DNA of 64,000 nucleotides from Pseudobdellovibrionaceae bacterium (GCA_030158485.1 JAOASS010000009.1:62001-126000), one strand, 5' to 3'. Positions 7,311-60,464 are shown, counted from the first letter of the stretch. The notes: generated by a model from the letters alone, not told the origin. Numbers and translations: made by a program.

Positions 7311-9491
7311 TTAGGGTTTAATACGAGTTGGCAAGGCTTTTAATTTGAGAGCATGAGCTTTGCTAGAAGGGACTAAAACTTCTTCGGGACTTTCGTTATC
7401 TGTACCCAGTTGTAAATCAAAAGATCGATCACTCAGCACATTTTTTAGGAATGCAACAGCCGTGTAAACGGGAGATATCTTTTGATCGCCTAAGTTGAGA
7501 TCCGGAATTGAACCTGATTCAACACTTGAAAATTTCACATTCAAGCCAAATAATTCTTGAGCATTTTTTTTAGGCAAAATACTAGGGAAAAATTCGCTTA
7601 CAATGTATTGATCAAAAATAGGATCTCGCTTTGCGATTTCAAAAGCTCTAATTTTATCTTTGCTGTCAGCGCTTGTGTTCACAATACTTGAAGCTTCAAA
7701 AGCTTTTTCATAAGCAAAAGTACCAAGACCACCAGATTGCTCTTGGTCGGCCAATACTAAATTCATTTGTGATTTTTCTGGGTGGTTGTTCAAGTATTCA
7801 TAAATCATTTGTCCTAAGTTTTCTTTTGGAATCAGGCTGACCGCTTCAAGTGCTTTTTTACCGAAGACATACTGGTGGCTTAAGAAAGCATTTGTTTGAT
7901 TTGTTTTTGGAAAGAAACGATTAAAAGAATCATTGTTTTTAAAATTTTCAGGAAGTGATCGTGCCAAGTTATTTTTGATACGATTGATTTCTTCTGCACT
8001 TAAATCTGTATCACGATATTCAGTTTTTAGAACAAGGTCAGCAACAGCTCCAACATTGCGATTTTTATCTGAGTTAACAACTAAATCTAAATCATGTGAA
8101 TAATTGTATGATACACGGCCTAAGTATTTTCTTGTTCGAGATTTTTGAAAAGTATTATTGAGATAGTAGTAGTTAGGACTCATGTTTTCATCATATGAAG
8201 TGACAAAGCTATCTAAGTTTCCAGTGATTCCTTTTTTAGACACAATTTCACTAAACCAGATTTTGCCTTCACCAGCAAAAAGGTTAGATTGCATTCGCCC
8301 TTTAAAAAGACTGCGAACTCTCATATCTTTCGCTGCAAGATCACCACGTCGGTAGCGGTTTAGGTCTTCTCTTGCTAAGTCTTCTGCAATTTTGACGTTT
8401 TCAAGAAGTTTATTCCCAAGATCTAAATCAACGTCATCACTTTCACCGATAGGACTAAAAAATAAACTGGCGAATCCAGCTTTGTTGATATTGCTGGCGA
8501 GCTCTTCATAAGCTGCTTCTGCTAGATCTGTTCGTCCTTTGATTTGATCTAAATTAATAAGATCAGGAGTTGAAAAATTAAATAAGTAATCAACCATCAT
8601 CGTATCAAGTGGATATTTTTCTGTAGGCGAAAGAAGCGAAATATTTTTTCGAATAAGTCCACCAATTCCAGTTGTTAACAAATCACCCAGGATTCCAGCT
8701 GGTGAATCAGTCTTTAATTTAAGTCCAACTGATACTTCACCTTTGTTTTTAACACCTAGCAAGCGCATACGAGCCAGTTGATTATTAAGTTTGTAAAGAT
8801 CTAACAAAAATAAAGCCTCAGTTTTAATTCCTGCTTTAATATCTTGGTCGACACCTAATTCAGTATTTCCAATAATTTCAACTCGGAAACCGTCGCCGTT
8901 GCTTAATTTAGATTTGACGTCATTTGAATCCATCGGAGTATGAAGAACTGTATAAGGACAGGCTTTCATAGCATCCCATTTTGCATTTGAACCACTGTAG
9001 AATCGACTAAATGTGATCCGAATTTTTGTATTCACGCTGGCAACTTGATCGGAATCAAGTCCGGCCCCTAAGCCAAATGTCCAAATATCTTTTCTCAGCT
9101 GTTCATTATTTCTAAAAGCAGGTTCGACAACGTACTTGTAACTGACTCCGGTTCTAAAAATTTTAGTATCAATTAAATTATTGAGCTCTCCTAATGAAAA
9201 TTGAATTCGATATCTTGCCGCTTCTTTTTTCAAAAAACTCAAAGTTTTCTTATTTGTAATTTGTCTGTCTTGTTCATCTACTGACCGGTTGGCGGGGGCA
9301 CAAATACTGGTTGTCGCTTCTTGTATTTTGTGAAGTAAACTTTTTTTGTTGTTTGCATGCTGTTTTATTTGTTCAAATGTGATCAGGGCAGGGTCTAGCT
9401 CAAAGTTTTTGGCCTTGTCGTTCGTCCAGCCGGTTGATGACAGCATTAAGCTTGATGCGATTAGTACTTTTAAAGAGACTTTGTTTTTCAA
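7311..9491 (-). CDS. Secreted protein of unknown function, 726 aa, first gene of the radical SAM operon
   Basis: No family was recognised. The N-terminus (MKNKVSLKVLIASSLMLSS) is a plausible Sec signal peptide, predicting a periplasmic or outer-membrane location. The mature part alternates polar segments with stretches that look beta-rich (for example SVGLKLKTDSPAGILG and YVVEPAF), and a hydrophobic Gly-rich stretch (ILGDLLTTGIGGLIRK) lies near residue 270. There is no CXXCH or obvious catalytic motif. The start is TTG 9491 with a GAGG site 6 nt upstream. The radical SAM start follows 53 nt after its stop, so it is the promoter-proximal gene of the operon. It could be a target, receptor or export partner of the modified peptide, or an envelope protein that shares only the regulation. 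Function unknown. Confidence 0.8.
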   Translation of the reverse strand: MKNKVSLKVLIASSLMLSSTGWTNDKAKNFELDPALITFEQIKQHANNKKSLLHKIQEATTSICAPANRSVDEQDRQITNKKTLSFLKKEAARYRIQFSLGELNNLIDTKIFRTGVSYKYVVEPAFRNNEQLRKDIWTFGLGAGLDSDQVASVNTKIRITFSRFYSGSNAKWDAMKACPYTVLHTPMDSNDVKSKLSNGDGFRVEIIGNTELGVDQDIKAGIKTEALFLLDLYKLNNQLARMRLLGVKNKGEVSVGLKLKTDSPAGILGDLLTTGIGGLIRKNISLLSPTEKYPLDTMMVDYLFNFSTPDLINLDQIKGRTDLAEAAYEELASNINKAGFASLFFSPIGESDDVDLDLGNKLLENVKIAEDLAREDLNRYRRGDLAAKDMRVRSLFKGRMQSNLFAGEGKIWFSEIVSKKGITGNLDSFVTSYDENMSPNYYYLNNTFQKSRTRKYLGRVSYNYSHDLDLVVNSDKNRNVGAVADLVLKTEYRDTDLSAEEINRIKNNLARSLPENFKNNDSFNRFFPKTNQTNAFLSHQYVFGKKALEAVSLIPKENLGQMIYEYLNNHPEKSQMNLVLADQEQSGGLGTFAYEKAFEASSIVNTSADSKDKIRAFEIAKRDPIFDQYIVSEFFPSILPKKNAQELFGLNVKFSSVESGSIPDLNLGDQKISPVYTAVAFLKNVLSDRSFDLQLGTDNESPEEVLVPSSKAHALKLKALPTRIKP

Positions 9492-46219: not shown

Positions 46220-46392
46220 AAAGCTGGATTAGCTAATGTTACTTTTAAGTTCCCTTTGGAGAGTTCTGTGTATTGGGACTCAATTTGTGTCTTATTATGT
46301 AAGGCTTTCAAAAATTTTGATCTTATATGAAATGAGAGCGTTGGAATTAATGGAATGAAGCTTGTAAGGCAATGGGCCTAAGGGAGGTTCTT

Positions 46393-47232
46393 GTGATTCT
46401 ACTTATAACAGATTCTTTTATGAAATTACAGAACATCAAAAAATGCGATTATTTTTTGCCTCAATTGAACGTTTTGAATTCTGAAAAAATTCATGACTTT
46501 GAAATTATGTGGAGCCAGGACAAGCCGCTTGCTGAATCAGCAAAAAGTATTAAAGAAAAAATTTTACAGTCTCGAAATCCAGTTACGGTTTTGGCTCACG
46601 GAAAAGCTGGTTTAGATGCAATTGAATGTTTAATTCAGTACCCAGAACTACAGGAAAAAGTTGAAAAGATTGTAACTTTGCAAACCCCCTTCTGGGGAAC
46701 TCCAATTGCTGATTTTTTGACCGGCCATCCAGTATTTGGAACTATTACGATGGGTGTTTGTAAAGTAATAGGTTGTAGCTTGAAAGCGATTGAAGAAATG
46801 AGCGAGCTCAATCGACAAGTGTATATGATTTTAAATAAAGAAAAAATCAGAAAACTGATTCTGAATGTATCAGTTATTACTGTCGGCTCAAGCTTTGAAG
46901 CTCCAATGCCAGCCTTCACATATTTTGAAAAAATAATGAAGCACATTCATGGGTTTATCGGAAAATATGCAGGCTTAAACGATGGTATCATGCCGTTACT
47001 ATCAACCCGAATTTTTGATGAGACCCACATGCGATTGCAGAATGTAACCCATATGACAATGGTCACACCTTCTCTTGCCGCTTCAGTTGAAGTTGAAAAT
47101 ATGATTCGAAATATTTTAAAATCGACTAAGCTTTTAAAGCCTTTTGAATATCCGACGAAATTTCCTTGGGATCGGTCTGGGGAGAATAGCGATTCAAAAC
47201 TTGGCCATTCTTACCAACAAGAAATTTCGTAA
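46393..47232 (+). CDS. Alpha/beta-hydrolase (lipase)-like protein lacking the nucleophile Ser
   Basis: 279 residues from GTG 46393, which has an AGGGAGG site 6 nt upstream (in-frame ATG 46372 lies before that site). The sequence aligns in outline with bacterial triacylglycerol lipases: ILLITDSF early, the nucleophile elbow PVTVLAHGKAGLDAIECL where lipases read AHSKGGLDA, then VTLQTPFWGTPIADF and a late GLNDGIMPLLST (Asp strand) and TMVTPS region. At the elbow the Ser is Gly and the Gly is Ala, so classical Ser hydrolysis is unlikely. No signal peptide. Its last 107 nt overlap the convergent glutathione peroxidase gene. Confidence 0.72.
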   Translation: MILLITDSFMKLQNIKKCDYFLPQLNVLNSEKIHDFEIMWSQDKPLAESAKSIKEKILQSRNPVTVLAHGKAGLDAIECLIQYPELQEKVEKIVTLQTPFWGTPIADFLTGHPVFGTITMGVCKVIGCSLKAIEEMSELNRQVYMILNKEKIRKLILNVSVITVGSSFEAPMPAFTYFEKIMKHIHGFIGKYAGLNDGIMPLLSTRIFDETHMRLQNVTHMTMVTPSLAASVEVENMIRNILKSTKLLKPFEYPTKFPWDRSGENSDSKLGHSYQQEIS

Positions 47233-47629
47233 AATTCCACTTGATAGCTTCAGTTCCTAAAATTCCCGGAGCTGAAGCTTTCAGCCATTTATAAACAGGT
47301 GCTGAGTTATCACCATTTACTTCAACTTTTGACATAATCGGAAAACTGACTTCGTATTGAAGGCTACAAAACTGTTGAATTTCATCATTTGAGCCAGGCT
47401 CTTGCCCACCAAACTGATTGCATGGAAAACCAAGGATTGTAAACCCTTGCGCTTTATATTCACGGTAGATTGATTCTAGCCCTGCGTACTGAGAAGTAAA
47501 TCCACACTTGCTGGCAACGTTCACAACTAACACGACTTGGTTCCTAAGATCCGCGAGTGCAAGTGTGGAATCAGCTGCGGTTTTAACGCTAAAATCATAG
47601 AAGCTAGTGGAAGTGTTGGGTGATGTCAT
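47126..47629 (-). CDS. Glutathione peroxidase (thiol peroxidase of the GPx family)
   Basis: 167 residues from ATG 47629 with an excellent AAGGAG site. Family blocks: FSVKTAADSTLALADLRNQVVLVVNVASKCGFTSQYAGLE with peroxidatic Cys, ILGFPCNQFGGQEPGSNDEIQQFC with Gln and resolving Cys, and IKWNFTKFLVGKNG with Trp-Asn-Phe. Reduces hydroperoxides in the cytoplasm, probably with thioredoxin. The 3' end overlaps the lipase-like gene by 107 nt on the opposite strand. The 18-bp region around its ribosome site and ATG is exactly repeated at 50508. Confidence 0.95.
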   Translation of the reverse strand: MTSPNTSTSFYDFSVKTAADSTLALADLRNQVVLVVNVASKCGFTSQYAGLESIYREYKAQGFTILGFPCNQFGGQEPGSNDEIQQFCSLQYEVSFPIMSKVEVNGDNSAPVYKWLKASAPGILGTEAIKWNFTKFLVGKNGQVLNRYSPQTDPKEISSDIQKALKA

Positions 47630-47644
47630 TTTGGCTCCTTGGAG
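47627..47644. repeat. 18-bp direct repeat, copy 1 (gpx ribosome site and start codon)
   Basis: CATTTTGGCTCCTTGGAG occurs here and again in the same orientation at 50508-50525. On the reverse strand it is the AAGGAG site and ATG of the glutathione peroxidase gene. The two copies bracket the HK1-SBP1 gene pair. Confidence 0.9.
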
Positions 47645-47731
47645 GAAGGATAATAATATCGTTAGTACGTTAAAGTGACTAAAAATACAATGGGACAATA
47701 GTGTTATTAGTTTATAGATCTACAATTTATT

Positions 47732-48994
47732 CTAACTAATTGGAAAATAAAGGTTTACCTGAGCTCCAGAAGTCATATTTAAAATTTCAAATCGACCACC
47801 AGCCTTTTTCATAAAGTCAAAAGCGGACATAAGCCCCAGGCCATTTCCATCAGACTTTCCTTTGCTGATAGATCTTTTTCCAAAATTTACGAGAACTTCG
47901 TTGTCGAAACCATGGCCCTTATCCGAAATGCTAATTTTAAAAAATTCAGATATAAATTCTAAATCGATATTAATTTCAGATTGGACATCCTGACTAGTGG
48001 CTTCAATAGAATTTTGGAATATATTTGCTAATACACGTTCAAAATCAGACTTCTTAACTTTTAAAAACATGTCAATTTTACGACTATAATTAAAATGAAC
48101 TCGATACTTAATTTGAAACTCTCGAATCAGAAGATCAATTGAGTCGATTACATTGAAATCTGAAACCTCTACCAAATGAGTCGCTTTACGACTTTCACTG
48201 AGTAAGTCATTTGCGATTTCACTAATTCTTTTGGTGGACTCAATAATGAGTTGAGTTTTAGGATCTTCTAGGTTTTCAAGTTTTGAAATAACAAAATTTA
48301 ATGCAGTCACAGGACCTCGGATATCATGACTGACTTGCTTTGCAAGATTTGAAATAATTTTTTCATTTTCTAAATTAATTTTTGCAATCAACTCATTTTT
48401 ATTTGCAGTTTCTCGACTTTCGAAAAGTTCAGTGAGCTTTAATAAAACCTGAGAATTTTCCTTAAAAATTAACTGGCCCTCTTTATTTCGCAAGGCTGTA
48501 TTCTCGAGATAATAAATTAAATTAATAAGATTATCTTCACCTGTAGTTTTGGCAATAAGAAGGTAAAAAAATCCAAAAAACTGAATAAGCGAAAAAGCGA
48601 GAAAGAAAAATTTACTTGTGATAGATCGATAAATTAATGAGGTTATTTTTACGCAAGATTTCATATTGGCGACGGAAATCCCCATATGAATAATATCAGC
48701 ATTAAAGTTTGCTAAGCATAATTCAGAAGAAATGATTGAAGCACTTAAAGATCGATTGTCGAATGTATTGATGATTAAATTTCGATCATGGTCTGAGTAT
48801 ATTTTTTCCAACTGAACCTGAATAGCAAGGTCATCACTATCTATAATAGCTATGGCAAGGGTAGGCGAGATGCTTTTAATGTAATTTCTAAAACTTATTA
48901 TGTCGACGGCCGCAGCGGTTAAAACCGATAGTATAATAGCTGAAGAAAATATTAAAAATGTTTTTTTATTAAAAAAATAATTCAAAAAATTCAT
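47732..48994 (-). CDS. Orphan membrane histidine kinase (HK1)
   Basis: 420 residues. Two membrane segments (about 9-30 and 130-150) enclose a small periplasmic domain of about 95 residues. The cytoplasmic part has a HisKA phospho-acceptor in AKQVSHDIRGPVTALN (near residue 222) and HATPase blocks NIFQNSIEAT, SDKGHGFDNEV and DGNGLGLMSAFDFM. No response-regulator gene is adjacent. Its start overlaps the SBP1 stop by 4 nt (ATGA), so the binding protein and kinase are made together; ligand-loaded SBP1 is a possible input. AT-rich composition contrasts with the flanking gpx gene. Confidence 0.88.
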   Translation of the reverse strand: MNFLNYFFNKKTFLIFSSAIILSVLTAAAVDIISFRNYIKSISPTLAIAIIDSDDLAIQVQLEKIYSDHDRNLIINTFDNRSLSASIISSELCLANFNADIIHMGISVANMKSCVKITSLIYRSITSKFFFLAFSLIQFFGFFYLLIAKTTGEDNLINLIYYLENTALRNKEGQLIFKENSQVLLKLTELFESRETANKNELIAKINLENEKIISNLAKQVSHDIRGPVTALNFVISKLENLEDPKTQLIIESTKRISEIANDLLSESRKATHLVEVSDFNVIDSIDLLIREFQIKYRVHFNYSRKIDMFLKVKKSDFERVLANIFQNSIEATSQDVQSEINIDLEFISEFFKISISDKGHGFDNEVLVNFGKRSISKGKSDGNGLGLMSAFDFMKKAGGRFEILNMTSGAQVNLYFPIS

Positions 48995-50376
48995 TTAATT
49001 TTATCTATGTGTAAATACCCACTTATCGGGTCTGCAGTGACAACTTCGACTAATCTTTCAGGAAAAATTCTTTTAACTGTACTTTCGCCGAGGGGAATGA
49101 CGTATCTAGAATCAAGTGTGATTTGATGGGCTTTTTTAAAAACTAAAGCGCGTTGTTCCTTAGAAAAAACGTCACTAATTTTTGATACTTCGCTCTCAAG
49201 ACCAGTAATCGGATCGGAAAGAAGTCTATTCTCACGAAAAAAAGATTCAAAGTATATTGAGGCTTCAGATGAAGTTGCAATATTGCTGCTTGAGCTATCA
49301 AAACCAATCACAGAAACATAAGGCTTACCCGAAAAAACTATTTTTGCCATCTGTGAGGGATCTACTAATTCAGGAGATATGAAACGCGCCATTTTCCCAA
49401 AAATAGCTAGTTTATTCAAAACAATATTTTCGTATTGATTTTTTAATGGAATTATCATTTTTACGGGCTTAAAATGAGAAGAAATTTTGCAGTTTTCTGA
49501 TTTTACATATTTGACGTTAAACCCTGATATTCCGATAGGAAGAAAGCCTGGAGTGGGTCTTAATGATAGATTATAAAATTGAATTAAATTTGAAATATTA
49601 AGAGAATTAGATATGCAGCTTCTGTATGAGGAGTCTTTAATATTTACAACCAAGGCATAAGATTTATAATTCTTAGCCTCCACTTCTTTAAAGCCAGTCA
49701 AGTTTGCAATTTTTAAATTTGAAAAGACAGGGTTAATGTCGTCGTAAAGGTTGGGATTAAAATTAGCTTCAGATATTTTTTCAAAAATGACTTTTGTGAA
49801 TCTTTCTACTTTGTAATCTTTATGGTTCACTAGCTCAACTTTTGATTGGTTGAAGGACTTGATTTTATAAGGACCCAGCCCAATTGGAGTTATATCATTT
49901 TCTGTTGATGATTTGAGAATAGTACTTGCTGTGCCTTGAAGACTCAAAAAGTATCGCGGAGATTTTTTCTTCAAGTTTATGACTACGCAGGAGTCGCCGT
50001 CTAGAATGATAGATTCTAATGGAGGAGCTTGCTCAATCAACGAATGGAATCTTTCTAATGAAGTCTTCAAATCAAGGGATTTAATATAAGTTTTATCAGA
50101 AAAAGTGAGCTTACTTTTAAGGCACATTCTAAAAACATTAAAATTAATATTCAAAGCTTTTGATTGGGACATGTCTAAAAAGTGACTTTGCCAGATACCG
50201 TCTGATTCCTCTATTAAAAGGGGGAAATAGATTTGTAAGGATAAGTACTGGCCAATATTCAATTGGCCATCTCTTGGTTGAACAGATGCGGGAATAAAAG
50301 GAACTGCGATTCGGAAAGTTTCTCCAGAGAACGCAATTGAGCTTGCAAAGAGTAGAGTCAAAATATTTTTAGTCAC
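48991..50376 (-). CDS. Oligopeptide-binding-like extracellular protein (SBP1, SBP_bac_5 type)
   Basis: 461 residues with signal peptide (MTKNILTLLFASSIAFSGE). The SBP_bac_5 layout is seen in outline: QIYFPLLIEESDGIW, KLTFSDKTYIKSLDLKTSLERF (F.dG.p.ta.Dv..sl.r.), TPIGLGPYKIKSFNQSKVELVNHKDY (the GTGPY.v..... motif with IGLGPY) and an acidic end. No lipobox. No Opp permease or ATPase genes are nearby, so it may act as a sensor subunit of HK1 instead of a transporter part. A -35/-10 candidate lies at 50410-50437. Confidence 0.8.
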   Translation of the reverse strand: MTKNILTLLFASSIAFSGETFRIAVPFIPASVQPRDGQLNIGQYLSLQIYFPLLIEESDGIWQSHFLDMSQSKALNINFNVFRMCLKSKLTFSDKTYIKSLDLKTSLERFHSLIEQAPPLESIILDGDSCVVINLKKKSPRYFLSLQGTASTILKSSTENDITPIGLGPYKIKSFNQSKVELVNHKDYKVERFTKVIFEKISEANFNPNLYDDINPVFSNLKIANLTGFKEVEAKNYKSYALVVNIKDSSYRSCISNSLNISNLIQFYNLSLRPTPGFLPIGISGFNVKYVKSENCKISSHFKPVKMIIPLKNQYENIVLNKLAIFGKMARFISPELVDPSQMAKIVFSGKPYVSVIGFDSSSSNIATSSEASIYFESFFRENRLLSDPITGLESEVSKISDVFSKEQRALVFKKAHQITLDSRYVIPLGESTVKRIFPERLVEVVTADPISGYLHIDKIK

Positions 50377-50409
50377 GTGCGCTTGTCCAAACGTAATGCG
50401 TGAAGTTTG

Positions 50410-50437
50410 AGAATACTATAAATCTGAGTTTCGTCAA
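50410..50437 (-). promoter_or_regulatory. Candidate sigma-70-type promoter for SBP1-HK1
   Basis: On the reverse strand TTGACG (50437-50432) and TATTCT (50415-50410) are separated by 16 nt, 33 nt from the SBP1 ATG at 50376. Moderate match only. Confidence 0.4.
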
Positions 50438-50507
50438 AATACTTTGATATGAGCTTAGAGGTTCCGGAATGTTATTATTAGAAACTTGGTAGAATTTGTA
50501 GTGAGGC

Positions 50508-50525
50508 CATTTTGGCTCCTTGGAG
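50508..50525. repeat. 18-bp direct repeat, copy 2 (relic of the gpx start)
   Basis: Exact second copy of the gpx ribosome-site/ATG segment. On the reverse strand it still reads AAGGAG and ATG, then MASLQILPSF and stop, against MTSPNTSTSFYDF of real gpx. Nucleotide similarity seems to persist for about 30 more bases (ATG.C.TCAC...AGTTTC), which looks like a decayed 5' end of a gpx copy. Confidence 0.8.
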
Positions 50526-50675
50526 TGTCTAGATTATACTAAATAATGTAAAAATGTTATTAATTAAAAATTTAACATGAGCTTTAACTATAAAATTTAA
50601 ATCAAAAATAGGCTTCATTTTATTTGTATTCGCTTTGAGTTAAGAAAGTTTAATTTTTAGGTATTTAAATACTGA

Positions 50676-50692
50676 TGGAACGGTACTTGCTT
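50676..50692 (+). promoter_or_regulatory. Sigma-54 (-24/-12) promoter for the YcaO operon
   Basis: TGGAACGGTACTTGCTT: GG (50677-50678), 10 nt, GC (50689-50690), with TTGCTT at -12; the -24 element differs from TGGCACG by one base. Transcription would begin near 50702, about 28 nt before the GTG at 50730. Confidence 0.72.
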
Positions 50693-50729
50693 TGCCATAC
50701 TGCAGCTATGATGCAAAGGGGAGTTTAAT

Positions 50730-50978
50730 GTGGAAATAAATCAACAGAATGATCTTGTTATAGAAGTCAGAAATTTAGAAAGAATTGGTATCAATCATCT
50801 TCAAGTTGTTGAGTTATACCAAGAAAACAAGGGAATTAAATTAAATTTAAACGATTTGGTTAAAGTGAGTGCAAAAAATGAAGGTCAGAGCATATCTTTC
50901 GAAACTTGGGACCAAATTAGTATTGTTATTCCTGTTAATATGGCAGCTGGCAATTATAATAAAATCGCTAAATACTAA
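50730..50978 (+). CDS. 82-aa leading protein of the YcaO operon, possible precursor or partner
   Basis: GTG 50730 lies 7 nt after GGGGAG and about 28 nt after the predicted sigma-54 start site. The product is acidic to neutral, without signal peptide or Cys (MEINQQNDLVIEVRNLERIG at the start; SIVIPVNMAAGNYNKIAKY at the end). The first 50 residues alternate hydrophobic and polar residues like a small beta/alpha domain. The C-terminus could be a modified core (MAAG followed by NYNKIAKY), because the operon encodes a YcaO protein, but no known leader motif was recognised. It may equally be a small partner protein. The last 101 nt overlap an alternative, hydrophobic N-terminus of the next gene in another frame. 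Confidence 0.6.
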   Translation: MEINQQNDLVIEVRNLERIGINHLQVVELYQENKGIKLNLNDLVKVSAKNEGQSISFETWDQISIVIPVNMAAGNYNKIAKY

Positions 50979-50997
50979 AATTCGAAATCAATCAAGT

Positions 50998-52446
50998 ATG
51001 AAAAAAGAGCTTACTTATGTAATTTTTAATCCACGTAGTGTAATAAACTTGAATTTATTCGAAGCAGAAAAATATGAATCAGCTGTTGTTGTTCAGCAGC
51101 TCATAGGAAATTTAATCTATTTTTCTAACAAAGGTAGATACGAACCAAGAATAGCAGAACGTTGGGAGCGCGTTGCTCCTCATATTTGGACATTTTTTCT
51201 AAAAGAAAATTTCAAAACCGAAAATGGTGAGCTAATAAACTCTAGATCATTTAAAAAAAGTATCGAAAGGGCAATTTATATTTATTCTAAACTTGGTGAG
51301 GTGCCGGTTTTAGGTCATTTAAAAGGCTATAAGCGTTTTCTGAGTGATAATAGTCAAGTTTTAAAATTAGATGAAATTAGTGAAATTAGCGGTATTAAAG
51401 TTTTTAATAATGAAATAACATTTGAATTTGATTTGCCAATCAAGTCAGGACTGTTACAAATTCTGTCATTTTCGCCATTTGGTTATATAAGTATTGAAAA
51501 CTATAATCAAAATGGATCATGGAAAAATGATAGTCAGTTCGTCTCATCGGGTCCTTACAAAGTAAAAAAAATTGATATAGGAAAAGAATACGAACTAGAA
51601 AAAAATCCATTTTGGCTTGAATATGCAGATCAAGCGCCTGATACAGTTTATATAAAACATGAAGTTCCAGACAAGTCATTTTCAAGACCATTAATTGTTG
51701 ATGCATTCACGCATAATTATGAAAACTCTTATCTTCACAAGTATTCTCTAGTTCCAGAATATATAAATAGTGTTTTACTAGGAAATCTTAGAGATGGATA
51801 TTTTTCATCCGTAGAAAATAGAAACGCGTTTAAAGCATTTTTTGGACAAGAAAGAGACAGTCTCTTGCCAGACTCATTTGGCTCTAATGTTAGATCTTCA
51901 AGTTTTTATCCAGGACAAGATGTGAATTCTGTAAGAAGAAATACGGTTAGTGTGATTTCTAAAAATTCTGTTCCACTAATTATTGAGGGGCGAATGCCAG
52001 ATGTAGGTACTCCACGTTTTGCCGCATGGCAGATTCTAAAAAACACGCTAGAGAAAAATAATCTTTCATATAAATTTTCGGATACAGAAGCAAAATTTGA
52101 AGAGATGGTTAATCCAAAATATGATATTAGAATTCGTGGATCCTCAATTGGCGGCGGCGTAGAGGCCTGGGGAATATTTGTTATATTTTGTTCTCCTTTT
52201 GGAATTAATTTTCCAGACCCTTCTGGGCGAGTTTGTAAATTAATTGAAGAATATGATAAAGATATTATAGACGAAAACCAGTTGACTCAAGATTTTCTAA
52301 AAACAGTAGATGAAGATTCTGCAATACTGCCAGTTAGTCACTATGGCATACAAATGTATTTTTCTAATGAAATATATTTAGATTCTGTGAGCCCAATTAT
52401 GTCAATAATGCGGTTTGATCAAGTTGAAATTAAGTATGCAAATTAA
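50998..52446 (+). CDS. Oligopeptide-binding-like protein (SBP2) of the YcaO operon
   Basis: 482 residues from ATG 50998. It shows SBP_bac_5 features: RWERVAPHIWTFFLKENFKTENGELI, SRSFKKSIERAIY, ITFEFDLPIKSGLLQIL, VSSGPYKVKKIDIGKEYELEKNPFWLE, and a late FPDPSGRVCKLIEEYD. The frame extends upstream to ATG 50878, which would add a charged n-region and a long hydrophobic helix (LVLLFLLIWQLAIII) acting as an uncleaved anchor; that stretch overlaps the 82-aa gene in another frame. Neither start has a good ribosome site. If cytoplasmic, it may handle the peptide substrate of YcaO; if anchored outside, it may feed HK2. No permease genes are adjacent. Confidence 0.78.
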   Translation: MKKELTYVIFNPRSVINLNLFEAEKYESAVVVQQLIGNLIYFSNKGRYEPRIAERWERVAPHIWTFFLKENFKTENGELINSRSFKKSIERAIYIYSKLGEVPVLGHLKGYKRFLSDNSQVLKLDEISEISGIKVFNNEITFEFDLPIKSGLLQILSFSPFGYISIENYNQNGSWKNDSQFVSSGPYKVKKIDIGKEYELEKNPFWLEYADQAPDTVYIKHEVPDKSFSRPLIVDAFTHNYENSYLHKYSLVPEYINSVLLGNLRDGYFSSVENRNAFKAFFGQERDSLLPDSFGSNVRSSSFYPGQDVNSVRRNTVSVISKNSVPLIIEGRMPDVGTPRFAAWQILKNTLEKNNLSYKFSDTEAKFEEMVNPKYDIRIRGSSIGGGVEAWGIFVIFCSPFGINFPDPSGRVCKLIEEYDKDIIDENQLTQDFLKTVDEDSAILPVSHYGIQMYFSNEIYLDSVSPIMSIMRFDQVEIKYAN

Positions 52447-53299
52447 TACTGAATATATTATTCAAAAAAATTGTTTGAAATTGCAAGAGTATAGTCTTAA
52501 CTCGCAGACCGGCTTTGATTACTGGCACAGCTGCTTAATGGATATAAACAATTTGCCTGTATCGGGTGGATTTGGCTGCGATAAGCACACATCAAGAAAA
52601 ATCGCATTAGCAGAATTTCTTGAAAGAGATGCATATAAGTCTATTTCAAGCTCTGACTATCAAATACAGAAGAAATGGGGCTTAGATTTAATGCCAACCG
52701 GATGTGGATTTGCGGCAGGTTTCAATCATAATAATACTATTATAAGATCAGTTGGCGAGGCAGTTGAAAGATGGGTCATCAGTAAATGGATTGATGAAGG
52801 TCATCTCATGGATTCTGTGACTGATGTACATGCTCTAAGCGTTCTTGATCCTATAAGTAATTGGTTTTACCGACAATTTGACAAGGTTTATTTTTATAAG
52901 AAAGAAATTATAGTAATGTTACATAATGAGTTTTATAAATTTCAAATCGGCGCAACTATTGGTCGAAAAAATAGTGGCGTATATGTTGGATATTCAGCGC
53001 AGATTAACGATAATAATTTATGGCAACACGCTCTATTGGAAAGTTTTAGACATTTTTTGATCGAAAAAAACAACAATCCAATAAATATTTTTCCTGATAA
53101 CAGAATTAGATTTTTTGGTAAAAATGCAGATTACGCATTAAGTAAAATTCCCCAAAATAGTCAGTCATTATGGCCGATACCTAAAATTATTCATTTCGAA
53201 TGTGAAGAGAATAGTCAAATTGGATTTTTTTTAGCACGTACAATTATTGATGGATGGAAAAGTTGGCATTTGGGCGGTGACGATAGGTTTTTATACTAA
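52436..53299 (+). CDS. Compact YcaO-family protein
   Basis: 287 residues from ATG 52436, 11 nt inside the SBP2 end. YcaO-type signatures are seen in order: GGFGCDKHTSRKIALAEFLERDAY (S..E..ER, about 57-64), TGCGFAAGFNHNNTIIRSVGEAVERW (A...GEA.ER, about 89-112) and YVGYSAQINDNNLWQHALLESFRHF (about 183-207). These form the ATP/Mg site in the family, which activates peptide amides to make azolines, amidines or thioamides. It is much shorter than typical YcaO proteins, lacks the Pro-rich C-terminus and has no E1-like partner next to it. The substrate could be the 82-aa protein; this is inference. Its stop is 2 nt before HK2. Confidence 0.78.
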   Translation: MQINTEYIIQKNCLKLQEYSLNSQTGFDYWHSCLMDINNLPVSGGFGCDKHTSRKIALAEFLERDAYKSISSSDYQIQKKWGLDLMPTGCGFAAGFNHNNTIIRSVGEAVERWVISKWIDEGHLMDSVTDVHALSVLDPISNWFYRQFDKVYFYKKEIIVMLHNEFYKFQIGATIGRKNSGVYVGYSAQINDNNLWQHALLESFRHFLIEKNNNPINIFPDNRIRFFGKNADYALSKIPQNSQSLWPIPKIIHFECEENSQIGFFLARTIIDGWKSWHLGGDDRFLY

Positions 53300-53301
53300 T
53301 C

Positions 53302-54537
53302 ATGAATTACAAATATTTTTTTCGGCGTAAGTCTCTTTTTAAATTTAAAGTAACAACTAGTTTATTTAAATATACACTCAATTTTATAATTTTTATTTTT
53401 ATATTGCTTAATTTTTTTGGTTTTAGAAAATTTGACCGAAATGATAGTCAAAAAGTAAATAAAAATATTGAAACTCTACTAAGGAATGAAACTAATATTT
53501 CAAACTTTTATGCAATTTCAAAAACTCTGGTAGATTTGGAAAGTTTAGAAGTATTTAAATGTGCCTTTTTAAGGGAAGAAAATAAGCCTCGAAATATATA
53601 CTATAACTCAATTGAAACAAAGTGCAGAAGTAGTATATTTTCAAATTTAAGAACTCAAAATATTATATTAAAAGCGCTTAATGGAAATAAATACGAGTTG
53701 AAATACATAAAAAATATTGATGCCTTTGCCATAATTACAGAGTTATTAATTTATTTAATTTTGGTTTCGATTAGCTTGGTCTTCCAAAAGTATTTAAAAA
53801 ATCTTGAATATGATAATAATCTCAAAATTAAGGCGCTTGAAGTTGAAAAAAACATGATGTTAGATCATAATAAACAAATTAAACATGATGTGGCTTCACC
53901 TATTTCAGCTTTAAATTCAATAGTATCTTTACTAAAGAATATAGATCCAGAAATTAAAAGTGTATTAATTAGTGCAATAAAACGAACTGAGATGATATTT
54001 GAGGATCTTAATTTATCGCCTGGAGAACCCGTTATGTTAAGCTTGAAGCCTATTATCCAAGAAATCGTAAATGAAAAAAAAATCTTATGGAGTAATACTG
54101 TTAATTTCGAATTGGAATCATTTCTGATAGGAGATGATATTTATATTTTATCTGAAGAAAAAATCTTAAAAAGAATTATTTCAAATATTTTTAACAATTC
54201 ATATGAAGCGTATTTTTTTAATCAAATCTCAAGAGATAATAAAATTAAGAATAGTTTAATAATTAGTATCGGAATCGAAGTAAATTTAAAAAATAAAATC
54301 TGTTCAGTAAAAATTTGTGATAACGGTCCTGGAATTCCAGTTTCTATTTTAAAAAAAGTTGGCCAAAATGGTTTTTCTTATGGAAAAGAAAATATTCAGA
54401 GCGCTGGAGCTGGTTTAGGCATATACAATGCAAAAAAATCTTTATTAAATTGGGGTGGTGATTTTGAGATCACTAATTGCGAAACAAATGGTGCTTTGGT
54501 TAGATGTGATTTCAAAATGCATTCTTTAGTATGTTAA
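53302..54537 (+). CDS. Orphan membrane histidine kinase (HK2)
   Basis: 411 residues. Membrane segments near 24-41 and 150-170 bracket a small Lys/Asn-rich periplasmic domain of about 105 residues. The phospho-acceptor region is KQIKHDVASPISALNSIV (near residue 195), and the HATPase blocks are NIFNNSYEAY, CDNGPGIPVSILKKVG and AGAGLGIYNAKKSLL. No response regulator is adjacent. It is the last intact gene of the YcaO operon, 2 nt after it. HK1 and HK2 share topology and arrangement with a neighbouring SBP, suggesting an ancient duplicated module. Composition is very AT-rich. Confidence 0.88.
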   Translation: MNYKYFFRRKSLFKFKVTTSLFKYTLNFIIFIFILLNFFGFRKFDRNDSQKVNKNIETLLRNETNISNFYAISKTLVDLESLEVFKCAFLREENKPRNIYYNSIETKCRSSIFSNLRTQNIILKALNGNKYELKYIKNIDAFAIITELLIYLILVSISLVFQKYLKNLEYDNNLKIKALEVEKNMMLDHNKQIKHDVASPISALNSIVSLLKNIDPEIKSVLISAIKRTEMIFEDLNLSPGEPVMLSLKPIIQEIVNEKKILWSNTVNFELESFLIGDDIYILSEEKILKRIISNIFNNSYEAYFFNQISRDNKIKNSLIISIGIEVNLKNKICSVKICDNGPGIPVSILKKVGQNGFSYGKENIQSAGAGLGIYNAKKSLLNWGGDFEITNCETNGALVRCDFKMHSLVC

Positions 54538-54539
54538 TA

Positions 54540-54770
54540 GGTGGCGATCATAAATTTCTTGCTACAAATAGTAAGGGAATATCAGAGACTGTTTTAGATA
54601 AAGTTTGAGTCATGTGCTTTTAATTTCATAAAAAAGACGACAGCAGATTTGGATTTTTTAATTTTCGCGATACTATTAGCTCTTGGCATGAAGAATTTAA
54701 AATTACCTCAAAAGAAGGTGAAGGCGCTATATTTCATGTCAATCTTGACCTGGTGCAAATTCTCGAATAG
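54540..54770 (+). pseudogene. Decayed C-terminal end of a histidine kinase
   Basis: A 77-codon frame with two internal stops (TGA, TAA) reads NSKGISETVLDKV-stop-VMCF-stop-FHKKDDSRFGFFNF, then RDTISSWHEEFKITSKEGEG and AIFHVNLDL. This matches the HATPase pattern of the adjacent HK2 (CDNGPGIPVSILKKVGQNGF, AGAGLGIYN, LLNWGGDFEI) but with damaged catalytic residues (DNG to TNS, GLGL to RFGF). It is not an extension of HK2, which ends 2 nt earlier. A relic of a second kinase copy is the simplest reading. Confidence 0.68.
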
Positions 54771-54852
54771 TTTTAGTCACTCAAGCAAAGCGCTTGCATA
54801 AATTTATATTCAATTTAATTTATGTATATATTATAGTATTATGTTGCTAATG
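54771..54852. other. AT-rich spacer after the kinase relic
   Basis: Contains no recognisable gene or hairpin; T/A-rich throughout. It separates the rightward YcaO module from the leftward genes that follow. Confidence 0.5.
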
Positions 54853-55269
54853 CTATTTTTTCGAACGACGTGGTTTGGTTGTAAGGCCATCATTTCTATC
54901 GGCATAGTAACCAATAGTTGCCACATCCAAGTATGATAGATCTTTAAGCTGACAGAATGACGTCTCATTATTGTTTTTATCAATCCCAATATATACTTTT
55001 CCACCAATAATTTCAGAGCAAATTGTGGAGGCTATATTCTGTTCGTTAGGATGTTTCATTCTTGTTTTATTAGAACTAATTTTGTTTAAGAAAGATAAAT
55101 TTTTGCAAATTTTATTTTGTAACGCCAAGTTGCATTTTTTTGAGATCGTTAATCTTAAATTAGGGTAGTTATAAAATTTTATATTTTCTTCTCGAATTTT
55201 AAAAAACGTAGAATCTTCCGCATAAACAGCACAAGATGCAGTTATTAACATAATATAAAATATTTTCAT
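54853..55269 (-). CDS. Small secreted protein of unknown function, 138 aa
   Basis: Signal peptide MKIFYIMLITASCAVYA. The mature part is Lys/Asn-rich with four Cys (KKCNLAL, NKICKN, STICSE, SFCQLK), suggesting two disulfides, and a basic tail (TTKPRRSKK). No family was recognised. ATG 55269 lies 2 nt downstream of the preceding protease-like gene stop, so the two form an operon. Highly AT-biased codon use suggests the accessory region. Confidence 0.65.
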   Translation of the reverse strand: MKIFYIMLITASCAVYAEDSTFFKIREENIKFYNYPNLRLTISKKCNLALQNKICKNLSFLNKISSNKTRMKHPNEQNIASTICSEIIGGKVYIGIDKNNNETSFCQLKDLSYLDVATIGYYADRNDGLTTKPRRSKK

Positions 55270-55271
55270 TT

Positions 55272-56360
55272 CTACTTATCCTTCAAATGGAAAACTTCTG
55301 ATGTATTCATCATGAGCGAATTTTCATCAACCCAAACTTGACCATTTTCACATATTTTTGGTCTATCTTCACCCGTATTCATAGGTATTGAGTCAGGTTC
55401 ATATAAATCATATCCATTACACGAGCTACCAAACGAATCTCTTACTAAAAATTGGCAAATAGTTTCTATTTTATTTCCATATTTATATTTAAGTAATCGT
55501 CGTCCTACTATAACAGATGCGTGTACTTGGTTATTGCAGGTGCTATTGTTCAATAGTCCTGCGGGACTCACGCCATTTGATTCTTTATCTTTTAGTACCT
55601 TCTTGCAGTAGCTAATTCCGATAGGTTGTGCATTTTTTTGATCTAATCGGTTATTGATATTTTTTTTAAATGAGTTCATCGCGGATGTTTTATTTTTGTA
55701 TGTATGTGCTTTAAGTTCAGTTACACCTGGTAGAAAAGATAAAGATTTTTTATGATTACTGCAAATTTCTTCAATAATCTTATTAGAATATTGCACCCAT
55801 GTTTTTTCATTCATATATTTTTTTATTTTTTCTATATCGATTGTATTGCTAGTTCCTGAAGCTAGAACACAATTCAGAATTGACTTCGCTGATTTCTCAA
55901 ATTGCGAAGAGTCATTTTTTGCATCCTGATAGTTTTTTACAAGTTCATAAATAAAATCCGCTGATTTCTTCGAATTAAATTCGTCTCTGATTACGTTATA
56001 TGAACATGTATCTAATTTTTTTGCATATCCAATCACTTCTAAAACAGGATTAAAATTTATTCCAGATTGATTTGTGACTGCCGCATATTGCACGCCGAAT
56101 GCAATTGGTGATGTTAGTGCATCTACAGGTGGGTTGTTAGCGATTCGCCATGCATCTATAAGTTGTGCACTGGCATAAGCACTACATAAATTTGTACCGT
56201 CTTGATCTTGAACTGGAATTGTAGATAATACTTCGGGAGGTAAGTCTAGTCGTTTTGTTCCACAGGCTTGATCTGTTGTGAACTCAAAATCTGGTGATGA
56301 TAAAGCCATTGAGGGTAATATTAACAAAATAATAGCTTTGCGATAGTACACTTTATTCAT
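55272..56360 (-). CDS. Papain-fold (C1-like) secreted cysteine protease-like protein
   Basis: About 362 residues from ATG 56360, which gives a signal peptide (MNKVYYRKAIILLILPSMALS). The C1 layout is seen as IPVQDQDGTNLCSAYASAQLIDA (catalytic Cys), QVHASVIVGRRLLKYKYG (His region) and CQFLVRDSFGSSCNGYDL, where papains read an N-S-W-G block; here the Asn is Asp. The insertion between is helical. It may be an active or altered exported protease. It faces the Cys/Gly-rich secreted protein at 56541 across about 180 bp and is followed by the 138-aa secreted gene. Confidence 0.72.
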   Translation of the reverse strand: MNKVYYRKAIILLILPSMALSSPDFEFTTDQACGTKRLDLPPEVLSTIPVQDQDGTNLCSAYASAQLIDAWRIANNPPVDALTSPIAFGVQYAAVTNQSGINFNPVLEVIGYAKKLDTCSYNVIRDEFNSKKSADFIYELVKNYQDAKNDSSQFEKSAKSILNCVLASGTSNTIDIEKIKKYMNEKTWVQYSNKIIEEICSNHKKSLSFLPGVTELKAHTYKNKTSAMNSFKKNINNRLDQKNAQPIGISYCKKVLKDKESNGVSPAGLLNNSTCNNQVHASVIVGRRLLKYKYGNKIETICQFLVRDSFGSSCNGYDLYEPDSIPMNTGEDRPKICENGQVWVDENSLMMNTSEVFHLKDK

Positions 56361-56540
56361 AATTGAATTGTCGTACTTCAGATACATTTAAGTTAACATG
56401 ATAAAAATAAAACTGATCTATCGTCTAGCTAATGATTCTCAATTTGGGACAATTGTTTATCAAAATAGAACAGTTACTACAAACATGTATGTATACGACT
56501 GACTCCGTTCTACAATTTAAAAAGGTAATCGGGGGATTTT

Positions 56541-58031
56541 GTGTATTTAAAAATAATATTTATGTTATTGTTTACGGCATTTTCTCTCGTCTCAATTTCT
56601 AGTAACGCTAATCCCTCTGGCAATAAACGAGGCAAAAACTTATCAAATAATACTTTGAATCGTAATCCTAGTAGCAGCATGCCATCGATAACTTTGGAGG
56701 AATCCATGAGGGATTGTTATGTTGTTGAAGGCGGAAATTTAATATGTGATGATAGAAAGATTTTGCCAAATTCAGATTATGCAACAGACGAATACGAACA
56801 AAAACCTAGTTCTTCGCCAATGGGAGAGTGGGTTGCTAGTTGCACACTTTATCAAGACAAAGATTTTAATGAATGCATGGATGATTGGAAGAATAGGACA
56901 GCCACGGGTGGTGGTAGTTGTAATGACACTAATCAACAGTTCGATCCCACGACTCAATCTTGTATCACTAAGAAAACCGAACCATCTCTTACCCAACCTT
57001 CCCCCGACGAGCCCTCCCCGGTCGATTTGTGCATAGCAGCTCATGAGAGTGCGATGTCTTCTTGTGATTCTGAAAAAGGGAATTGGATGAGTGGTATTAA
57101 CGACGTTACGCAAAAATTGGGGTCTGTTGTTAATCAAGTTAATCCGAGTACCTGTGGTGGAATCGCGGCTGCTTCTTCCGGTGCGGCGGCGTCGCTCGCA
57201 ACATTTGAACTGATGTGCAATTCTGCAACATCTGAGTGCGTGGAGAAGTGTACAGATCCAACGCAGTTAAAATTAGCTGATCAATGTAAAACTAACGGAA
57301 CAAAAGCTTCGGAAGCTCGGCAGAGTGTTTCTTCTGCTATGTTGACTTTGCGGGGCTCAGTTACTGCATGTAAAAATGCTTTTGGTGATCTTAACACTCA
57401 AGCCCAAGCGCATTGTGCGACTAATCCTGCGGCTTGCCAGTTTGAATTGCCTGGAGCCATACAAGCTAAAGCTTTTCAGTCTGATCAGGCTGGTGGTGGT
57501 GTTACGTCAGGCTTGAGCGGTGATGGTGCGAAGAGTGCTCAGAATGATCGCAATGGTGGATTTAACTTAAGTGACCTTGGTGATGACGAAGATCGTGGCA
57601 TTGGTGATATCAAGCCGTCTCGGCCCGGTGAAGAAATCGGTGGAGGAAAAGGTGGCGGTAGTGTAGCCGGTGGTTCTGCTGGGCAAGGTGATGGCGGTAG
57701 CGGACGAGGTGGAGGCAAAAGAGAAGGCGGTTTGCTTTCTAATATTCTTTCCGGTTTTTTTGGTAGCGGTGGTGGTTCTGGCGGTGGTGGATGGAAAAGT
57801 TTTTTTGGTGGAAATAAGAGTAATGATAGTTACGACGGCAATCGCTCCAGTAATGTTCAAGGCGGACCAGACTTGCGTAAATTTTTACCGGGCGCAGTTA
57901 ATGATCCTGCCAGAAATCGCGGGATTGCCGGGCAATTTATTGGCCGTGACGGAATGACTGGACCGCATTCTAATATTTGGCTAAATATAAAAAATCGATA
58001 TCAGAGTAAGCGCGCTAGCTTAATTCCGTAA
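56541..58031 (+). CDS. Secreted Cys-rich protein with Gly-rich C-terminal half
   Basis: GTG 56541 has GGGGG 9 nt upstream. The 496-residue product has a signal peptide (MYLKIIFMLLFTAFSLVSISSNA), a Ser/Asn-rich start, a central domain with about 14 Cys (SCTLYQDKDFNECMDDW, LCIAAHESAMSSCDSEKGNW, MCNSATSECVEKC, HCATNPAACQ) and, from about residue 325, a Gly/Asp/Ser-rich disordered half (SGRGGGKREGGLLSNIL, FGSGGGSGGGGWKSFFGG). No family was recognised. GC content is higher than in the neighbouring accessory genes. A surface, adhesin-like or structural role is possible; the divergent protease-like gene may process it (inference). Confidence 0.75.
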   Translation: MYLKIIFMLLFTAFSLVSISSNANPSGNKRGKNLSNNTLNRNPSSSMPSITLEESMRDCYVVEGGNLICDDRKILPNSDYATDEYEQKPSSSPMGEWVASCTLYQDKDFNECMDDWKNRTATGGGSCNDTNQQFDPTTQSCITKKTEPSLTQPSPDEPSPVDLCIAAHESAMSSCDSEKGNWMSGINDVTQKLGSVVNQVNPSTCGGIAAASSGAAASLATFELMCNSATSECVEKCTDPTQLKLADQCKTNGTKASEARQSVSSAMLTLRGSVTACKNAFGDLNTQAQAHCATNPAACQFELPGAIQAKAFQSDQAGGGVTSGLSGDGAKSAQNDRNGGFNLSDLGDDEDRGIGDIKPSRPGEEIGGGKGGGSVAGGSAGQGDGGSGRGGGKREGGLLSNILSGFFGSGGGSGGGGWKSFFGGNKSNDSYDGNRSSNVQGGPDLRKFLPGAVNDPARNRGIAGQFIGRDGMTGPHSNIWLNIKNRYQSKRASLIP

Positions 58032-58038
58032 ATCAATT

Positions 58039-58060
58039 TTAAGATCTCGATCTTTTTAAA
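58039..58060. terminator. Weak bidirectional terminator between convergent genes
   Basis: AAGAT, CTCG loop, ATCTT flanked by T runs on both sides, in the 30-bp gap between two convergent genes. Only a 5-bp stem, so low confidence. Confidence 0.35.
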
Positions 58061-58061
58061 A

Positions 58062-59273
58062 TTACATCATTCCGTGAATGACTTGCACGACTTTGTCACG
58101 GTGTTCTTGTTCAATCACTAAGGTAACGCTCATTCCCGACACGAGAAGTTCGTGGAACATGATTTGGTTTTTATCAAGGTTTTTAAGTAATTGATCGTAC
58201 AGTTGTGATGAAGTTGAGCCCGAGCTGGTCATCGTGACTGTAGAATACCTTTTTAAATTTATTTTAACTGAAGCGTGGCCAACTTCTTTTTCGATTGCTC
58301 GCATGACTTCGAGTGGGCCTGTCACTAATAAGTGTGTCCCTTCTGATGTTGGCATTGCTTTTAGGATTTGTGGGAAAGCGATTTGTTTTTCATTAAAAAG
58401 CCACTGCAATGTTTCCATGGCTTTGATCGGCTTAACCCCTTCTAAGATTAATTCTAAAACAGTTTCATGAGAATTGACTGAAAGTGGTTTCGAAGATTCA
58501 AACATATTCACACCTTTCAAGGGCTTTTGAACTAAGGTACCCGCAGATAAAGAATCACTGGCCGGGCCAATATAGAGTACAACTTCGCGGTTGCGTGCTA
58601 ATTCGACAGATCGGTAATGTAAAACTTTGGCTCCCCAAAACGTCATTTCTAATAACTGATCATAATTCAAATGATGAACTGGTTTTGCGTTGGCCACTAA
58701 TTTGGGGTCAGCTGAAAAAACTCCAGCGACGTCTTTTAAAATTTCACATCGTTCGGCTTTAAAATAAGCCGCCATTGCAACGGCAGTGGTATCGGTTCCG
58801 CCTCGACCCAAAGTTGTAATTTCTTTGGTCACAGGAGAAACGCCTTGAAAGCCAGCAATTACAGCAACTTTTTTTTCTCTAAGAGATTGTTCGACTCGTT
58901 GTGGTTTTAAATCTTGAATAAAAGCGTTGACGTGTGAATCATCTGTTAAAATTCCGGCCTGACTTCCCGTGAAACTAATTGCTGGGCAGTTGAGATCATT
59001 CAGTGCCATGCTTAAAAGTGCCATGCTGATGCGCTCGCCCGTTGTGAGTAGCATATCTAATTCGCGACGACTGGGATTATTTGAAACTTGCTGAGCTAAA
59101 TCGATTAGTTGATTTGTGGTTTGTCCCATCGCGCTGACTGCAATAATTAGATGGTGAGTTTGAGATTTTTCACAAATCCTATGTGCGACTGCGCGGATTT
59201 TTTGAGGGTCAGCCAGAGTCGCTCCGCCATACTTTTGAACAATAAGAGGTCTTTGAGTTCCAAGAATATTCAT
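58062..59273 (-). CDS. lysC: Aspartate kinase
   Basis: Phosphorylates aspartate, first step to lysine, methionine and threonine. 403 residues: VQKYGGATLADPQKIRAVA, VSAMGQTTNQLIDLAQ, LTTGERISMALLSMAL, TTLGRGGTDTTAVAMAA, EILKDVAGVFSADPK and a late pair of ACT regulatory domains (ESGTHLLVTG-type and SGMSVTLVIEQEH). Feedback regulation by lysine or threonine is possible but not read from sequence. The start ATG 59273 is 62 nt from the adjacent transglycosylase stop. The partner enzyme asd lies at 30.8-31.8 kb. Confidence 0.95.
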   Translation of the reverse strand: MNILGTQRPLIVQKYGGATLADPQKIRAVAHRICEKSQTHHLIIAVSAMGQTTNQLIDLAQQVSNNPSRRELDMLLTTGERISMALLSMALNDLNCPAISFTGSQAGILTDDSHVNAFIQDLKPQRVEQSLREKKVAVIAGFQGVSPVTKEITTLGRGGTDTTAVAMAAYFKAERCEILKDVAGVFSADPKLVANAKPVHHLNYDQLLEMTFWGAKVLHYRSVELARNREVVLYIGPASDSLSAGTLVQKPLKGVNMFESSKPLSVNSHETVLELILEGVKPIKAMETLQWLFNEKQIAFPQILKAMPTSEGTHLLVTGPLEVMRAIEKEVGHASVKINLKRYSTVTMTSSGSTSSQLYDQLLKNLDKNQIMFHELLVSGMSVTLVIEQEHRDKVVQVIHGMM

Positions 59274-60447: not shown

Positions 60448-60464
60448 TGGCACAAGCGTTGCTT
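60448..60464 (+). promoter_or_regulatory. Sigma-54 promoter of the flgF-flgI operon
   Basis: TGGCACAAGCGTTGCTT: TGGCAC at -24, exact 10-nt GG to GC spacing, TTGCTT at -12, matching the consensus TGGCAC-N5-TTGC. Predicted start near 60474, 27 nt before the flgF ATG at 60501, which has AAAGGAG upstream. Sigma-54 control of basal-body genes is well known in several flagellated bacteria. Confidence 0.85.

Follow-up and report, generated by a model that had tools for sequence, protein, structure and literature searches.

What would a peptide-modifying enzyme do in the company of a peptide binder and a sensor kinase? The question is raised by an AT-rich island in a 64,000-nt stretch of DNA from a Pseudobdellovibrionaceae bacterium (JAOASS010000009.1:62001-126000; the whole stretch is called the window below). 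An earlier note, made from the sequence alone, had described this island as encoding a small leading protein, a 287-aa YcaO protein, two SBP_bac_5 proteins and two histidine kinases, and all of these parts are present; the G+C content is 0.31 at 47.7-54.8 kb compared with 0.39 for the remaining window. We lean, with somewhat better than even confidence, towards the view that the right-hand module of the island is a copy of a conserved cassette making and sensing its own modified peptide. Its gene order is P82-SBP1-YcaO-HK1, and the gene ends overlap or nearly touch, as listed here with the evidence for each assignment in brackets.

50730..50978, plus strand: P82, a small 82-aa protein and candidate precursor peptide (GTG start, AGGGGAG ribosome-binding site, phmmer)
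50878..52446, plus strand: SBP1, an OppA-type peptide-binding protein with an N-terminal membrane helix (Pfam SBP_bac_5, E=3.4e-13)
52436..53299, plus strand: a compact YcaO enzyme of 287 aa, whose start overlaps the SBP1 stop (profile and fold)
53302..54537, plus strand: HK1, a membrane sensor histidine kinase with two transmembrane segments (Pfam HATPase_c, E=4e-13)

The name YcaO needed testing because Pfam and NCBIfam were silent on the 287-aa protein, giving no YcaO match even at E=1. In a Pfam YcaO scan of the same genome, only a second copy on contig C12 passed (35.1 bits). This missing match was read as divergence and not as exclusion, the cut-off being a detection threshold. A profile built from nine relatives matched TruD, MJ1094, MusD, LynD and Escherichia coli YcaO in the PDB, and a profile built from 44 sequences additionally matched McbD. 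The AlphaFold model (pLDDT 93) pointed the same way: all 38 PDB fold matches at E<0.001 were YcaO proteins, with TM-scores on the query of about 0.42-0.58 that are modest because the window protein has roughly 70-100 residues fewer than compact YcaO proteins of known structure. Specifically, E108/E111/R112 align with E199/E202/R203 of E. coli YcaO, and E60/E63 align with E75/E78 in a stretch that is weak (5 bits) but in register. The ATP-binding Glu and Arg residues, on which the earlier note had made its assignment depend, are thus present in the alignment with E. coli YcaO, and E60, E63, E108, E111, R112, E202 and R205 are invariant across 44 homologues. Judged by alignment and predicted fold, the window protein is a genuine compact YcaO with intact ATP/Mg-site residues. 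A false YcaO call was ruled out by the profile and fold comparison.

Of the 369 genomes searched from the phylum, 149 had a match to the nine-sequence profile, and these represent 87 of 182 genera; many of the genomes surveyed are metagenome-assembled. About 90 loci were examined, in which solute-binding proteins (SBPs), kinases and regulators were called with profiles built for the purpose, and removal of near-duplicates left 88 YcaO proteins as the basis for the linkage counts. A same-strand OppA-type SBP was found within 500 nt of the YcaO gene at 84/88 loci and a histidine kinase within 2 kb at 81/88; both were present at 77/88, several of the exceptions lying at contig ends. The co-occurrence in relatives that the earlier note had proposed to look for is therefore well borne out. 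Additionally, pairwise distances between YcaO proteins correlated with those between SBPs (r=0.89) and between kinases (0.59), the shuffled maximum being 0.13, which indicates that the genes travel together. Chance juxtaposition was ruled out by the joint linkage of SBP and kinase.

This linkage also bears on a housekeeping role. E. coli YcaO thioamidates the ribosomal protein uL16 without TfuA and without a nearby precursor gene (PMC13063428), and the cassette YcaO might likewise have a housekeeping target, its operon position being incidental. Linkage at 84/88 loci with an SBP and at 77/88 with SBP and kinase, several copies per genome, the patchy presence across the phylum (149/369 genomes) and a copy on a conjugative-element-like contig make this scarcely credible.

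Other searches concerned the range of the family. A scan with a one-clade alignment (A5) recovered 27 loci, the majority labelled Bdellovibrionota, and a single-sequence scan of genome contigs recovered no relatives. A phage or plasmid gene was ruled out, as tblastn of the window YcaO against phage and plasmid collections returned no match in either. A defence system was rejected as well, the six proteins tried having no PADLOC match. One contig, L107 (CALQIT020000077.1), is labelled as a metagenome-assembled genome of Streptomyces griseus and carries the same cassette as the L073 genome of the window's family; it is probably a mislabelled bin. L085 was left out of the tree and statistics: its YcaO gene (7415-8614) has other neighbours, with a small carrier-like ORF near by and neither SBP nor kinase, and probably belongs to a conventional cluster for a ribosomally synthesized and post-translationally modified peptide (RiPP) or to a mixed one.

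The proposed substrate is the small protein. A short ORF precedes the SBP gene in most loci and lies between the YcaO and SBP genes in one clade, and a signal peptide is usual. In one clade, 19 of these proteins carry a [TS]Q[DE] tail motif compared with 0.29 expected by residue shuffling, and the bodies of the TQD class (18 proteins) form nine clusters that have no detectable similarity to one another. The tail motif classes include TQD, NK and Cys, other clades ending in Cys-containing tails; placed on the YcaO tree, the classes require 10 changes, compared with a mean of 33.8 and a minimum of 26 for shuffled labels. Moreover, the final 14 residues are richer in Gly/Ser/Thr/Cys (0.34 compared with 0.20, random maximum 0.25), and Ser, Thr or Cys is present in 60 of 64 tails. 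P82 itself is similar to the small protein of L010 (phmmer E=1e-5) and aligns with the mature parts of those of L048 and L049; its C-terminal motif is ...NMAAGNYNKIAKY, and its clade ends in [FYP]N[KR]. With unrelated bodies and C-terminal motifs tracking the YcaO clade, the small proteins look like RiPP precursors. A match between motif and YcaO clade is what an enzyme-substrate pair would leave, and shared ancestry of the cassette would contribute to it too.

An antimicrobial RiPP with self-sensing, resembling nisin-type autoinduction, would also bring together a YcaO, a short precursor and two-component genes; its product would kill competitors and the kinase would regulate production. The Gly/Ser/Thr/Cys-rich tails of some clades (e.g. 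...GGGGGASCG) would suit such a product. We consider this improbable: gene clustering of the flanks yielded conjugation genes as the only widespread families, with no recurrent exporter, immunity gene or other tailoring enzyme, and known autoinduction circuits work without a dedicated SBP. Neither the annotated genes around the window cassette nor the recurrent flanking families included an E1-like or RiPP recognition element (RRE) partner, a dehydrogenase or an exporter. Nor did the flanks point to an adjacent tfuA, conjugation genes being their only recurrent family, with no TfuA model run on the neighbours.

On the sensing side, the SBP family profile matched OppA and MppA best and also hit the pheromone binder PrgZ, and the AlphaFold model of SBP1 (pLDDT 91.6, N-terminal helix at 2-40) had OppA and MppA as its top Foldseek matches. 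A simple pattern found a lipobox or AxA site in only 15 of 78 SBPs, and SBP1 has no obvious cleavage site; SBP1 and many other SBPs look membrane-anchored by these features. Opp-type permease or ATPase genes were absent from the window cassette and did not recur beside other cassettes. At L056, L060 and L087, two or three SBP_bac_5 genes are adjacent around one YcaO cassette. The translation of HK1 contains an H-box (KHDVASP), an N-box (NIFNNSYEA) and G1/G2 boxes (DNGPGIP, GAGLGI). Some longer kinases, as at L066 (5734-7509), are extended at the C-terminus by a stretch that weakly matches a receiver domain (E=0.003) and are possibly hybrid kinases.

These binding proteins would also suit a sensor of environmental or prey peptides, in which an OppA/MppA-like SBP samples murein or prey peptides and reports through the kinase, with no cell-to-cell signal; the small periplasmic protein would be an accessory, and YcaO would modify this accessory or the sensor to make it functional. 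The proximity of the SBP to OppA and to the murein-peptide binder MppA, the largely predatory phylum of the hosts, the extra SBPs at the three loci above and the window copy without a signal peptide, which makes pheromone secretion doubtful here, all speak for it. It leaves unexplained that conservation is confined to the C-terminal motif and that this motif varies with the YcaO clade, that cassettes lie beside conjugation genes, and that unrelated cassettes take each other's place at a single site (see below), and we regard it as rather unlikely.

Returning to the self-made peptide signal, its output would run through a response regulator. A linked same-strand sigma54 response regulator was found at 34 of the 88 loci, its domain make-up being Pfam-confirmed in two. 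The earlier note had remarked on the lack of permease, exporter and response regulator; none is present in the window cassette, but the absence of a regulator is a trait of this copy and not of the cassette family. Sigma54 -24/-12 sites stand at the heads of 18 of 33 regulator-bearing operons compared with 7 of 104 control gene starts (p=1e-8), consistent with autoregulation or positive feedback. In regulator-less cassettes these sites were not enriched (8/47 compared with 18/146, p=0.46), and a sigma54 promoter as a general cassette feature was rejected; it holds for regulator-bearing cassettes only. One such site precedes P82.

50676..50691, plus strand: sigma54-like -24/-12 promoter TGGAACGGTACTTGCT, with 1 mismatch, its end 38 bp upstream of the P82 start

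It scores 11/12 consensus positions, joint best in the window, and is suggestive only, because regulator-less cassettes as a group show no enrichment. A second strong sigma54-like site, TGGCACAAGCGTTGCT at 60448-60463, is distant from the cassette. Upstream of conjugation or transfer operons, sigma54 sites showed no consistent pattern, and control of conjugation therefore remains a proposal.

Regulator-bearing cassettes differ from the others in their surroundings: conjugation genes were found in the examined flanks of 16 of 34 compared with 1 of 54 (p=2e-7). The host's own second cassette, on contig C12 (L155/L156, 39 kb), comprises a YcaO, a small protein, an SBP, a kinase and a sigma54 regulator. 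C12 also encodes a tyrosine integrase, an HTH_17 protein and the T4SS components VirD4/TraG-type coupling protein, TrbI, CagX and VirB4-like protein, and it is likely an integrative conjugative element. Its metal-resistance genes comprise metal resistance-nodulation-division (RND) pumps and a P-type ATPase. This neighbourhood, together with NikA- and CntA-type models among the secondary matches of the SBP, would agree with metal or metallophore sensing, in which the modified peptide chelates a metal and a NikA/CntA-like SBP senses the complex. We hold this to be very doubtful, as the full SBP family profile favours OppA/MppA and metal genes are not a neighbour family recurring at at least 4 loci.

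A congener supplies a further argument for the peptide-signal reading. In it, L134 1180-10864 corresponds to window 46372-59000: the flanking genes are the same, but they enclose another cassette, AT-rich too, which has a small protein of its own and whose YcaO shows no BLAST similarity to that of the window. This locus is a cassette replacement site, which fits a signal with many dialects. We tentatively suggest, as a possibility that we do not favour outright, that the cassette is a replaceable pheromone 'dialect', in which each YcaO clade matures its own peptide for a matched SBP and kinase, and that mobile elements in predatory bacteria use it to time conjugation.

From gene content and order, the YcaO fold and ATP site, the clade-tracking tails, the sigma54 promoters and the association with conjugation genes, we infer the modification, the ligand, export and trimming, the SBP-kinase contact and the transcriptional output of the following course. 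A small precursor protein would be produced, and the stand-alone YcaO, using ATP, would activate the precursor's peptide backbone close to its short C-terminal motif and modify it there. In most family members, the precursor would then be exported through its Sec or lipoprotein signal and trimmed. The C-terminal peptide would be bound by the membrane-anchored OppA-like protein, which would then switch the neighbouring histidine kinase. The kinase would phosphorylate the sigma54-dependent response regulator, which would activate the cassette's own promoter in a positive feedback; in copies on mobile elements, the regulator would probably also activate conjugation functions. For the export and output steps, the window copy has neither a signal peptide nor a regulator gene.

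Several observations weigh against a self-made, self-sensed peptide. The modified product, its role as ligand and the phosphotransfer are all deduced, a linked regulator is absent in over half of the cassettes, the window copy included, and the cassette showed neither an E1-like partner nor a dedicated protease or exporter. The p-values given here ignore shared ancestry, and some calls are heuristic, the starts of small ORFs having been chosen by a hydrophobicity rule and ten doubtful ORFs excluded by hand. P82, unlike its relatives, has no signal peptide: with an in-frame stop at 50709 there is no space for one, and the protein starts approximately where the mature part of the relatives' small proteins starts. 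Ser, Thr and Cys are all missing from its last 16 residues, which makes azoline formation in the tail impossible, and thioamide or amidine chemistry would be required there. The window copy of the cassette may be altered. The production and sensing of a modified peptide proposed in the earlier note are thus supported in part: the precursor-like small proteins with clade-specific tails strengthen the proposal, but modification, ligand and export are read from the genes, many family members do have a sigma54 response regulator, and P82 departs from its relatives in having no signal peptide.

The remaining features of the island are a second, divergent module (HK2-SBP2) on the opposite strand to P82-SBP1-YcaO-HK1 and a gene remnant.

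47732..48994, minus strand: HK2, a second sensor histidine kinase, overlapping SBP2 (Pfam HATPase_c E=5e-10, HisKA E=4e-6)
48991..50376, minus strand: SBP2, a second SBP_bac_5 protein, in the divergent module (Pfam E=5.6e-10)
54540..54773, plus strand: a decayed remnant, the C-terminus of another histidine kinase (assigned by eye)

The kinase region of HK2 is 28% identical to that of HK1 (E=3e-17). BLAST similarity between SBP2 and SBP1 was not significant (E=0.1), and the best match of SBP2 among relatives was marginal (E=4e-4). Both modules of SBP and kinase that the earlier note had paired are present, but on this evidence SBP2-HK2 is at most a possible member of the conserved cassette. The remnant right behind HK1, where frame 1 reads FGFFNFRDTISSWHEEFKITSKEGEGAIFHVNLDL with two stops upstream, points to duplication and loss having occurred here. 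Farther right, a 371-aa protein (55272-56387) weakly matches phytochelatin synthase (E=0.003) and has Cys/His motifs like those of papain-like peptidases; it is conserved in the congener, again next to the cassette site.

The known contexts of YcaO proteins are antibiotics, methanogen enzymes and the ribosome. In the literature searched, no paper was found that combines a YcaO, an SBP and a sensor kinase in one system or places a YcaO in a two-component signalling operon. The cassette of these Bdellovibrio-like bacteria is apparently undescribed, as the earlier note had supposed of its composition. If the proposed role is true, dedicated signalling would be a new biological function for the YcaO family, and Bdellovibrionota would gain a testable peptide-based communication system and a handle on the movement of their conjugative elements; the dialect proposal, if true, would give Gram-negative bacteria a pheromone made by a YcaO. 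The genes for substrate, enzyme, receptor and kinase are neighbours, so each part is directly testable.

Among known systems, the enzyme is closest in kind to stand-alone YcaO proteins such as E. coli YcaO and ItfB, the latter discussed in PMC10352776 as forming an amidine at the last residues of its precursor. The fold and the conserved ATP-site residues are shared, whereas the cassette YcaO, at about 290 aa, is far smaller and comes in permanent linkage with an SBP and a sensor kinase. The peptides of pCF10 (PrgZ) and of ICEBs1 (PhrI/RapI) carry no modification; a permease imports them, and cytoplasmic RRNPP receptors read them (PMC6540685). The cassette resembles these systems in its SBP_bac_5-type binder, like PrgZ, in a presumed short peptide from a longer secreted precursor and in the conjugative context of some copies; it differs in having a YcaO and a membrane histidine kinase and in lacking a permease, no search aimed at RRNPP receptors having been made. 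With agr and nisin NisRK it would share a precursor, a modifying enzyme, a sensor kinase and, where one is linked, a regulator in one locus, as well as a presumed autoinduction, although their precursors and modifying enzymes are not homologous to those of the cassette. These circuits have a membrane protease or an ABC exporter and no SBP co-receptor. As proposed for the cassette, a periplasmic binding protein in LuxP-LuxQ works with a membrane kinase and not with an ABC importer, but the cassette SBP is of a different class, its presumed signal is a ribosomal peptide, and LuxP-LuxQ has no linked YcaO-type synthase. The newness of the cassette rests on its gene composition, and its proposed working principle resembles that of known peptide-pheromone circuits.

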